64,000 nucleotides of DNA from Nitrososphaerota archaeon (lineage in GTDB: Archaea; Thermoproteota; Nitrososphaeria; Nitrososphaerales; Nitrosopumilaceae). The position numbers were made by a program, and so were the translations under genes. The notes beneath the pieces were generated by a model that saw only the letters and a program-made list of their open reading frames with translations, did no database searches and had not been told where the DNA came from. The stretch covers positions 186,001 through 250,000 of the forward strand of contig VHBH01000001.1 in assembly GCA_016872055.1 (NCBI GenBank). Reading direction: 5' to 3'. The number at the start of each line of letters is the position of its first letter. The stretch's first letter is position 1. Shown here one piece after another: positions 15,680 to 56,384 of the stretch.

Positions 15680-16981
15680 CTAAGATGGTTTCCAGCCTTT
15701 AGGCATAGAGCCGCGGCTTGAGCTTGGCTTTGATTCGTCCTTTGGCTTGTCATATCCTGCTGGAAGTGAGCCACGTGTAGAACCTTGGTCATAGACACTA
15801 GTGTGTTGCTTATAGGATGAATCATCAGATATGAGTTCTGCTTCTCCTCTGTTGGTCTTGTATCCGCCAGATGCCTCGCTAGTATCAACTCCTCGTAGAT
15901 ATTTCGGGTCAATTCCAGTCTGGATGAGTTCAGAATCTTTCTTTGCTTTTTTGTTGCTCCACCAAAAGAATCCACCTGCGCCGGCTGCTGCCATGCCGGC
16001 CATTCCATATACGATGAATATTGGGAACGAGCCAGAAGATGTCTGCGCTCCAGTCGATGGGGTCGTAGGTGATACGCCCAGTACTTCGCCACCATTTAGT
16101 TGGTCAGGTGATGCATAGCCTGCGATGAAAATGTTTCCCGAGTCGCCAGACTCGATTGTTCTTATGTGATAAGTTTTATCGGAAGTAAATGTTGCCTCAA
16201 ATTCCTTTTCCTTGATTTGTCCCTCACGGAAACTGCTCTCACCCATTGTAAACGACGATACTACTACTTTGGCGCCAGAAAATCCGTACTTGCTAGTCTC
16301 TGCAACAATGCCAGTCGGGTCTGCCAAAAAATGCCAGTTGCCAATTCCTAGTCTGCCAATACCTGATGCATCAATCAGTGGAATGTTCATTACATTTCTT
16401 GCCTCGCCAGTCATCTGGGCTGCAACTTCGGGATAGTTTTTCTCGTAGAATGAAATTGGTTTGTTTATTTCAACGTCGCCGTATTCTTCTGTGGTAATTA
16501 CAATAGAGTCATTAACTTGTATTCCTCTCCACAAAATGTCAAAGAGTGCCGGAGAGCCTTCAGTGTACGGCTTGATCAGGTAGCCGTCAATTTTTGGAGT
16601 CAGAATAATTCTATAGTCAACTGATGTATTCTCACCTCTTCCAAAGAGCGATGCGTGATAGTCGATAGTGATATCAGATATGCGTGCTGAACTTTGTAAT
16701 TCCTGTAAATTCTCATTTAGTTTTTCAATCAGCATATTGACACCGGGGGCAGACTTGTCTACGGTAAAGTCGATTGACTTTGATTTTCCTCTCAGTGCCT
16801 CTGCTATTGCACCCCCTTCCTCGTATTCAATGTAGGCAGTTCGCTGGAACTTGAAGTGTGGGACTTCGGCAGTTTCTGGGGTTTTTGCATCCCAGTTCAA
16901 CTGAGCTGCAAATACCGGAGAGACAGAACCTGTAACCAAAATAGACAAAACTAAAAACGCTAATAGTGAACCCCTATTCAC
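15680..16981 (-). CDS. Exported, C-terminally anchored protein with a GSLPxG cytoplasmic tail
   Basis: GTG 16981 gives a 433-residue product with a classical signal peptide (residues 1-25, ending VFA). It continues with a beta-rich extracellular domain, a membrane helix near residues 322-345 (FIVYGMAGMAAAGAGGFFWW) and a tail of about 85 residues. The tail carries RGSLPAGY and the C-terminal RGSMPKGWKPS. The same motif ends two other proteins in this window (54669-55544 and 55731-56384). By topology the tail is cytoplasmic, so the motif may dock a cytoplasmic partner. A longer start at 17038 would place a polar leader before the signal peptide and is less likely. No domain family is recognised. 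Confidence 0.72.
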   Translation of the reverse strand: MNRGSLLAFLVLSILVTGSVSPVFAAQLNWDAKTPETAEVPHFKFQRTAYIEYEEGGAIAEALRGKSKSIDFTVDKSAPGVNMLIEKLNENLQELQSSARISDITIDYHASLFGRGENTSVDYRIILTPKIDGYLIKPYTEGSPALFDILWRGIQVNDSIVITTEEYGDVEINKPISFYEKNYPEVAAQMTGEARNVMNIPLIDASGIGRLGIGNWHFLADPTGIVAETSKYGFSGAKVVVSSFTMGESSFREGQIKEKEFEATFTSDKTYHIRTIESGDSGNIFIAGYASPDQLNGGEVLGVSPTTPSTGAQTSSGSFPIFIVYGMAGMAAAGAGGFFWWSNKKAKKDSELIQTGIDPKYLRGVDTSEASGGYKTNRGEAELISDDSSYKQHTSVYDQGSTRGSLPAGYDKPKDESKPSSSRGSMPKGWKPS

Positions 16982-54668: not shown

Positions 54669-55544
54669 TTAGAAGCCTTTTGGTAATGTGCCTTTTGGTT
54701 TTGCCGGTGCTGGAGGCGGTGTTGTCGGTTTGAATCCCGCTGGTAGTGAACCCCTATTCGAGTCATTTGGTTTTGGTGGTGGTGCAGTCTTTGTTTGTTG
54801 TTGCATTCTTGCAAGGTATTCTTTTTCATATGCCTCTAGCTGCTCCTTTCTTGACGCATTTTCATTTCCGCTAGAACCACTTGATTCTACCTGCTTGGTT
54901 CCAGCTGGTAGTGAACCCCGTGTTGGGTTTGGCTTCGGCGCTGGCGGTGGAGCCGTCTGTGTTTGTGCAGAACCAGTTGCTGTTGATTGTATACCGTATC
55001 CTGCAAAGTATTTTGTTCTAGGATGGTATGCGAGTTTTTCTCGTGTTGCAAAGTACTTGTTGGATGGTTGAGTGTATCCTGTTACCTTTGCCTTTTGTAG
55101 GTTCCAGTCGGATGTTGGAACGCTTGCTTGTACAACGTGCTTGCTTGCAAAGTATCGGTTTCCTGCTGGAGAGTATCCAGTTACCTTTGCTCTGTACGAG
55201 TGGAAGTCCGATGTTGGTGCGCTTCTCCATTGCTCCCAAGCTGGGACTACTTCTCCCTCTGGCTTTGGTGCTGGTGGTGGTGTTTGAACTTGTGGTTTTG
55301 GTGCTGGAGCTGGTGCCGGAGCTGGTTTGAAACCTGCTGGCAGAGTTCCTTGCGGTTTTGTTGTTGGCGCTGGTGCTGGTTTTGGTGCTGGTGGTGGTGT
55401 TTGAACTTGTGGTTTTGGTGCTGGTGGTGGTGTAGTTACTTGTGGTTTTGATTCAAATTGACTAGCTAGTTTTGCAAGTTTTTCTTCTAATTCTGCAATT
55501 TTTGCTTCTAAATCCTTTTTAGTTGACTTAGTAGTTCCAGACAT
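54669..55544 (-). CDS. Proline-rich repeat protein with GSLPxG motifs (long paralogue)
   Basis: The 291-residue protein has four parts. First is a short coiled coil (residues 7-30, DLEAKIAELEEKLAKLA). Second is a Pro/Ala/Lys linker built of TPPPAPKPQVQ-like units with one QGTLPAGFKP. Third is a core (about 115-195) containing two related units, PTSDFHSYRAKVTGY...NRYFAS and PTSDWNLQKAKVTGY...NKYFAT, plus a partial third (PRTKYFAGYG). Last is a tail with RGSLPAGTK, RGSLPAGFK and the C-terminal KGTLPKGF. No signal or membrane helix, so it is cytoplasmic. A shorter paralogue lies just upstream on the same strand. Function unknown. Confidence 0.78.
   Translation of the reverse strand: MSGTTKSTKKDLEAKIAELEEKLAKLASQFESKPQVTTPPPAPKPQVQTPPPAPKPAPAPTTKPQGTLPAGFKPAPAPAPAPKPQVQTPPPAPKPEGEVVPAWEQWRSAPTSDFHSYRAKVTGYSPAGNRYFASKHVVQASVPTSDWNLQKAKVTGYTQPSNKYFATREKLAYHPRTKYFAGYGIQSTATGSAQTQTAPPPAPKPNPTRGSLPAGTKQVESSGSSGNENASRKEQLEAYEKEYLARMQQQTKTAPPPKPNDSNRGSLPAGFKPTTPPPAPAKPKGTLPKGF
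54933..55450. repeat. Copy A of a near-perfect 518-base direct repeat
   Basis: This stretch of the long proline-rich gene matches 55770-56287 base for base as far as I can compare by eye, at a constant offset of 837. The flanking parts of the two genes are clearly more diverged. Copies this alike between two genes with diverged flanks point to recent gene conversion or duplication. An assembly artefact is unlikely because the flanks differ. Confidence 0.85.
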
Positions 55545-55565
55545 GTGTTTTCCTGACCCATAATA

Positions 55566-55579
55566 GTTTATTTACATTT
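55566..55579 (-). promoter_or_regulatory. Promoter element shared by the two proline-rich genes (copy A)
   Basis: The complement reads AAATGTAAATAAAC, ending 22 bases before ATG 55544. The same 14 bases precede the paralogue at 56408-56421 with 24-base spacing. It is probably a TATA box with flanking recognition element for a leaderless transcript. Confidence 0.55.
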
Positions 55580-55730
55580 TGTTCCCCGTTGTCAAAACAA
55601 TTTAGAACATTTTTTGCCAAACCGCATAATTTTGCAACAATAAAGCCAAAAATCCGCAATTCCAGACTTGGGCACCGATCTATTCAACATAGAATTTATT
55701 CAAAAAATATGTAAGAAAATATGGAATTTT

Positions 55731-56384
55731 TTAGAAGCCTTTTGGTAGAGAGCCACGAGAAGTATTCTTCTTCGGCGCTGGCGGTGGAGCCGTCTGTGTT
55801 TGTGCAGAACCAGTTGCTGTTGATTGTATACCGTATCCTGCAAAGTATTTTGTTCTAGGATGGTATGCGAGTTTTTCTCGTGTTGCAAAGTACTTGTTGG
55901 ATGGTTGAGTGTATCCTGTTACCTTTGCCTTTTGTAGGTTCCAGTCGGATGTTGGAACGCTTGCTTGTACAACGTGCTTGCTTGCAAAGTATCGGTTTCC
56001 TGCTGGAGAGTATCCAGTTACCTTTGCTCTGTACGAGTGGAAGTCCGATGTTGGTGCGCTTCTCCATTGCTCCCAAGCTGGGACTACTTCTCCCTCTGGC
56101 TTTGGTGCTGGTGGTGGTGTTTGAACTTGTGGTTTTGGTGCTGGAGCTGGTGCCGGAGCTGGTTTGAAACCTGCTGGCAGAGTTCCTTGCGGTTTTGTTG
56201 TTGGCGCTGGTGCTGGTTTTGGTGCTGGTGGTGGTGTTTGAACTTGTGGTTTTGGTGCTGGTGGTGGTGTAGTTACTTGTGGTTTTGGTGCTGATTCTAT
56301 TTGATTAGCCAATTTTGCAAGCTTTTCTTCTAATTCTGCAATTTTTGCTTCTAAGTCTTTTTTAGTGGATTTAACACTAGACAT
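55731..56384 (-). CDS. Proline-rich repeat protein with GSLPxG motifs (short paralogue)
   Basis: From ATG 56384 the 217-residue product repeats the layout of its neighbour: coiled coil (residues 5-27), proline-rich linker with QGTLPAGFKP, and the double PTSD-AKVTGY-YFA core. It ends soon after with RGSLPKGF, lacking the last 80 residues of the longer protein. An upstream in-frame extension to 56684 is antisense to another gene and is not used. It is cytoplasmic by composition. The close similarity of both copies suggests they form mixed oligomers through the coiled coil (inference). Confidence 0.8.
   Translation of the reverse strand: MSSVKSTKKDLEAKIAELEEKLAKLANQIESAPKPQVTTPPPAPKPQVQTPPPAPKPAPAPTTKPQGTLPAGFKPAPAPAPAPKPQVQTPPPAPKPEGEVVPAWEQWRSAPTSDFHSYRAKVTGYSPAGNRYFASKHVVQASVPTSDWNLQKAKVTGYTQPSNKYFATREKLAYHPRTKYFAGYGIQSTATGSAQTQTAPPPAPKKNTSRGSLPKGF
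55770..56287. repeat. Copy B of a near-perfect 518-base direct repeat
   Basis: This is the partner of 54933-55450. Just beyond the right end, copy B has a six-base insertion relative to copy A and then several substitutions in the coiled-coil codons. Confidence 0.85.

Follow-up and report, generated by a model that had tools for sequence, protein, structure and literature searches.

A short motif shared by an ammonia monooxygenase subunit and unrelated proteins of ammonia-oxidising archaea is a putative docking motif

The window analysed here is a 64,000-nucleotide stretch of a Nitrosopumilaceae genome (contig VHBH01000001.1). Three of its genes encode proteins with recurring copies of a short motif, G[ST][LM]P[AK]G:

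54669..55544, minus strand: P1, 291 aa, four motif copies, ends KGTLPKGF
55731..56384, minus strand: P2, 217 aa, tandem paralogue of P1 with two motif copies and the ending RGSLPKGF
15680..16981, minus strand: P3, 433 aa, with a signal peptide, an ectodomain of ~280 residues, one transmembrane (TM) helix (residues 321-348) and a predicted cytoplasmic tail

P1 combines a basic coiled-coil start with proline-rich arms, the conserved core WNxQKxKVTGYTxPSNxYFATRxRLAYHP and an LxxYExEYLARx box. P1 and P2 (family A) are 95% identical over their common part, and an 84-residue core is 100% identical at the DNA level. The core DNA of the pair was 100% identical within nearly every genome tested and 63-97% identical between genomes. 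Judged from these identities, gene conversion homogenises the tandem genes in each lineage, with the N-terminal stretch and the tails staying different. An earlier note on this DNA had described three unrelated layouts in the window. Since P1 and P2 are tandem paralogues, the window holds two unrelated families, not three; across ammonia-oxidising archaea as a whole, the unrelated motif carriers number more than three.

P3 (family B) was modelled with AlphaFold2 (pTM 0.64). The ectodomain is predicted confidently, much of residues 41-210 exceeding a pLDDT of 90, and the tail, which bears both motif copies, is predicted to be disordered (pLDDT < 50). Foldseek comparison of the model with the PDB gave no credible match (best E 0.0086, TM ~0.1). 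On this model, the ectodomain is possibly a new fold conserved in the family.

The motif occurs in frame eight times in the window: four times in P1, twice in P2 and twice in the P3 tail. All copies are on the minus strand:

54672..54692, minus strand: GTLPKGF, very C-terminus of P1
54732..54752, minus strand: GSLPAGF, 21 residues before the end of P1
54897..54917, minus strand: GSLPAGT, internal in P1
55329..55349, minus strand: GTLPAGF, internal in P1
55734..55754, minus strand: GSLPKGF, very C-terminus of P2
56166..56186, minus strand: GTLPAGF, internal in P2
15692..15712, minus strand: GSMPKGW, P3 tail, followed only by KPS
15752..15772, minus strand: GSLPAGY, P3 tail, 24 residues before the end

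These are the eight copies that the earlier note had counted, at the places it had given. When P1, P2 and P3 were shuffled with their composition preserved (20,000 times each), the mean was 0.0002-0.0007 motif copies and the observed count was never reached. The eight copies use seven DNA spellings, and the single common spelling lies in the near-identical part of P1 and P2. The motif is therefore a repeat at the protein level, which rules out a repeated DNA element as its source. The description of the motif as lying at or near the C-terminus holds for three of the eight copies, which are within the last 15 residues: two close their protein, and one has KPS after it. Two further copies stand 21-24 residues before the end, and the other three are internal.

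Both families are widely conserved. Among the 151 genomes in the window's family, 137 have homologues of family A and 142 have homologues of P3, in all 22 genera. The genera among the relatives include Nitrosotenuis, close to the window, as well as Nitrosopumilus, Nitrosarchaeum, Nitrosopelagicus and Nitrosotalea. Tallies within families are given as protein counts and proportions, not as copy counts (each copy was matched about twice). Both members of the family A pair end exactly with [RK]G[ST]LPKGF, and the remainder is ~50% identical between genera. The motif ending was present in 65 of 73 distinct family A proteins. A pattern of LPKGF followed by a stop codon is only weakly specific, its reversed control being not negligible, so orthologue alignments were used instead.

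The tails of P3 orthologues retain the motif, usually as the ending [RK]G[ST][LM]PKGWKP[SE]. Among 104 distinct P3-type sequences, 61 had the motif, 38 had a Cys-rich tail, none had both and five had neither. The need of P3 for the motif is thus not universal. The Cys-rich tail of some orthologues reads EEAACGCAASAEMGSECDCEMQGSCLCDATCGC... and the domain is probably metal-binding. Orthologues from other genera (L163-L168, L173, L174 and L103-L105) carry this domain in place of the motif tail.

The endings of the two families are exchanged in some lineages. P3 of L060/L444, L452, L457 and L460 ends with KGTLPKGF, the family A ending. Conversely, the P1 orthologues L014, L015, L016 and L024, from part of the window's genus, end with GSMPKGWKPS, the family B ending. 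If the proteins have a common partner, such swaps between non-homologous carriers are to be expected. In L452, the resemblance of P3 to the P1 tail goes past the motif, so exchange of tails at the DNA level may be one route.

Six genomes were searched at the codon level for the core [LM]PKG[FW]. In the 1.24-Mb genome from which the window comes, in-frame matches were confined to P1, P2, P3 and two proteins encoded outside the window:

G000:C4:55932-56294: AmoX, 121 residues, begins MTLPKGFGSGG
G000:C18:3433-4857: coiled-coil protein with the motif

The earlier note undercounted the motif and misdescribed two of its carriers; the most telling ones, AmoX and the coiled-coil protein, were out of its view. 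By our own tally, 37 of the ~40 matches in credible frames over the six genomes belong to motif families; the remaining ones are one CheB-like protein and two others.

The 121-residue protein was identified as AmoX by its position between the genes for AmoC (PF04896, 1.7e-13) and archaeal AmoA (PF12942, 9.9e-115). AmoX is described in the main text of PMC10030591 as a proven subunit of the archaeal ammonia monooxygenase (AMO) complex. The N-terminus MTLPKG[FY] was present in 53 of 53 distinct AmoX sequences of the Nitrosopumilaceae and Nitrososphaeraceae types. The start is MTLPKGF in Nitrosopumilaceae and mostly MTLPKGY in f8, the Nitrososphaeraceae type. After the motif, these 53 sequences continue with variable Gly/Ser linkers that are 9-31 residues long and come in 42 different versions. 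That the motif is truly N-terminal is shown by several genomes in which no more than two or three codons separate the ATG from the preceding stop. With KMIGRRVEN ahead of the first TM helix, the positive-inside rule would place this N-terminus in the cytoplasm. All three distinct AmoX sequences of the Nitrosocaldaceae type (f2 and f3) begin without MTLPKG[FY], from which it follows that ammonia oxidation as such does not need the motif. The names Nitrosocaldaceae for f2 and f3 and Nitrososphaeraceae for f8 are our own assignments, that of f8 made partly from the form of AmoX.

The motif is carried by further families. With ATG as anchor, TLPKG[FY] was found in 49 of 61 f8 genomes, and the reversed control in 0 of 61. 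Besides AmoX, the f8 proteins that start with MTLPKG[FY] fall into several unrelated families: a soluble one of 87 residues, a repeat/helical one and a set of long disordered proteins. One MTLPKGY family was considered as phasin/PhaE and rejected for lack of a Pfam match. The 87-residue family, MTLPKGFG...SHEELKDWLHSGQVD (L405, L408, L411, L474-L477 and L480), shares its N-terminus with AmoX and has no Pfam match. Nitrosopumilaceae also have a coiled-coil family built around two GDxGRL...SDxxYL units, in which 28 of 31 sequences contain a single conserved G[ST][LM]PKGW at an internal position. In Cenarchaeum-type genomes, a 723-residue protein has 15 motif copies and a 1329-residue protein has ~22; these are almost pure motif repeats with P/E/K linkers. 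A box LxxYExEYLxRx is common to the long family A paralogue and the Cenarchaeum-type repeat proteins (L099, L100, L101, L102 and P0001). In G019, the start of one related protein resembles DUF3892 at a borderline score (21.6 bits against a cut-off of 22.3), and two further motif proteins end with DUF5679; apart from these, Pfam gave no family on the motif carriers. Three proteins of G019 (L127, L217 and L218) also have a short repeated box, GGPHAHDEKP or GGPHGHDEKP, alongside the motif.

The motif is carried by at least five protein families of ammonia-oxidising archaea, including a subunit of AMO, and its general form is the seven-residue [GAM]-[ST]-[LM]-P-[K/A]-G-[F/Y/W]. What stays constant is L/M-P-[K/A]-G, joined in single or terminal copies by an aromatic residue, which varies by family. 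Many of the internal copies in families A and B have Ala in place of the motif Lys. Three peptide types represent the motif: the AmoX N-terminus (MTLPKGYGSGG), C-terminal GTLPKGF (SRGTLPKGF) and C-terminal GSMPKGWKPE (NRGSMPKGWKPE). As in short linear motifs, which span 3-10 residues, the copies sit in disordered or flexible segments, namely the P3 tail, the AmoX linkers and the proline-rich stretches of family A and the repeat proteins. The carriers are also non-homologous: AmoX, P1/P2, P3, the coiled-coil family, the 87-residue family, and DUF5679 and repeat proteins.

P1, P2 and P3 gave nothing credible against Pfam and NCBIfam, and no NCBIfam sorting model scored above its cut-off. A PDB sequence search with AmoX, P1 and P3 found no relative. 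The earlier note knew of no such motif, and text searches of mostly open-access literature likewise returned no earlier description in archaea; the matches listed for the motif strings concerned unrelated human-virus peptides. The searched main text of PMC10030591 makes no mention of the motif or of its presence in other proteins.

The earlier note had read the motif as a docking or sorting tag for a common partner, located at the C-terminus. The first part gains support at the sequence level: the motif is on non-homologous carriers, is conserved beside variable linkers, stands on tails that are exchanged between families and, within the genome, is nearly confined to the carrier families. The C-terminal part was too narrow. 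The motif is N-terminal in AmoX and the Nitrososphaeraceae-type carriers and internal in the coiled-coil family, and the repeat proteins have up to about 22 internal copies. In place of the proteome-wide pattern search that the note proposed, enrichment was judged from DNA-pattern censuses with reversed-pattern controls and from alignments of orthologues. The occurrence of N-terminal, internal and C-terminal copies indicates a position-tolerant linear motif and rules out recognition of a free C-terminus.

We propose, with a probability of roughly 0.6, that the motif is a short linear docking motif which tethers AMO to one cytoplasmic partner, together with an envelope protein and the multivalent coiled-coil proteins. 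The presence of the motif on an AMO subunit and on other families suggests that one partner gathers these proteins. Each copy would bind the same groove on a single abundant cytoplasmic protein. A replaceable Lys together with position tolerance fits a peptide lying in the groove of such a partner and speaks against end-group chemistry. AmoX would present the motif from every AMO protomer, on its N-terminal Gly/Ser linker, and the single-pass P3 would present it from the cytoplasmic tail. P1/P2, the SDxxYL coiled-coil family and the Cenarchaeum-type repeat proteins, with one to ~22 copies, would cross-link the partners; by their sequences, P1 and P2 look like cross-linkers, combining a coiled coil and a conserved core with disordered arms and more than one copy of the motif. 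The outcome would be a sub-membrane network that positions or clusters AMO and links it to the cell envelope. The partner may be among the proteins found singly cross-linked to AmoX. The main text of PMC10030591 leaves these single cross-links unexplained and puts them down to abundance; they fit the docking model and do not prove it.

The motif could instead be a self-associating sticker whose copies bind each other or the folded parts of the carriers, such as the family A core, and so form a homotypic network without a receptor. P1 and P2 do unite a coiled coil, a conserved core and several motif copies, gene conversion keeps their cores identical, as might suit co-assembling subunits, and the Cenarchaeum-type proteins consist of little but the motif. 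However, AmoX has a single copy. In addition, the family A core has no credible match outside Nitrosopumilaceae (one weak f8 match, E 6.5e-4, has an internal stop), yet the Nitrososphaeraceae-type AmoX retains the motif. The core is therefore not a general receptor, and as a universal receptor it was rejected; this is why a cytoplasmic hub is proposed. We regard self-association as unlikely.

More improbable still, the motif might be a modification or processing site (Lys acylation, methylation or cleavage by Lys-Gly) read by one enzyme. A short, invariant K-G that lies exposed in a disordered tail is the kind of site that enzymes typically recognise. Against this, the Ala variants rule out modification of the Lys as the common denominator, the range of positions misfits end-directed processing, and proteolysis would cut the multi-copy repeat proteins to pieces. 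Only marginally less probable is a role in targeting, with the motif directing its carriers to the membrane or into a protein shell, in the manner of cargo loading, rather than to a soluble hub. Encapsulation peptides are likewise short, terminal and preceded by flexible linkers, and the carriers include both soluble and membrane proteins; but AmoX and P3 are already anchored in the membrane, and an enzyme embedded in the membrane would hardly serve as shell cargo. Chance or low-complexity repetition, to which the repetitive surroundings of the internal copies in family A and the Cenarchaeum-type proteins might point, is refuted by the shuffles, the conservation over 22 genera, the empty reversed ATG-anchored control and the presence of the motif on AmoX and P3, neither of which is proline-rich, and it has hardly any probability left.

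Should the docking model hold, a motif shared by AmoX and a few conserved families without an assigned function offers a direct handle for fishing out the partner with a synthetic peptide. It also gives a functional frame to conserved uncharacterised families, namely P1/P2, P3 and the coiled-coil family, and the motif-less AmoX of the Nitrosocaldaceae type provides a natural comparison.

Several known systems resemble the motif in part. Encapsulin and carboxysome cargo peptides are also short terminal peptides that follow a flexible linker on unrelated proteins. They differ in sequence, and the archaeal motif is in addition internal, present in up to ~22 copies and carried by a membrane enzyme. 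PEFG/PGF-CTERM and LPXTG signals are conserved short motifs near the C-terminus, and L-P-x is common with LPXTG. In contrast, the archaeal motif lacks a subsequent hydrophobic helix and basic end, is apparently on the cytoplasmic side and is N-terminal in AmoX. It is the last element of the protein or is followed by KPS or KPE, and the TM helix of P3 (321-348) precedes the tail. Sortase or PEFG-like sorting was rejected on these grounds, the side being wrong and no TM helix following the motif. The likeness of L-P-x-G-[WF] to the start of WW domains (LPxGW) and to GYF-domain ligands (PPG-aromatic) is superficial, as the archaeal motif stands alone in disordered tails; a WW domain, which has three strands and about 35 residues, was rejected, with no Pfam WW match in P1, P2, P3 or AmoX.

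The closest working analogue, by likeness of organisation, is the Rubisco-binding motif of the algal pyrenoid, which is carried by a multivalent linker as well as by membrane tethers (EPYC1, SAGA and RBMP; PMC10473203). In both systems a short motif recurs on unrelated disordered linkers, coiled-coil proteins and membrane tethers, and in the pyrenoid it gathers the key enzyme. Here, the multivalent P1/P2 and repeat proteins have one motif in common with the membrane proteins P3 and AmoX. The two motifs are unrelated in sequence. Rubisco is itself the receptor and is condensed by the linker, whereas in the archaea the enzyme subunit AmoX bears the motif and would dock on a separate partner. A dedicated motif code, in which one hub would bind AmoX N-termini, envelope tails and coiled-coil scaffolds into a sub-membrane assembly for ammonia oxidation with pyrenoid-like logic, is a tentative extension of this analogy.
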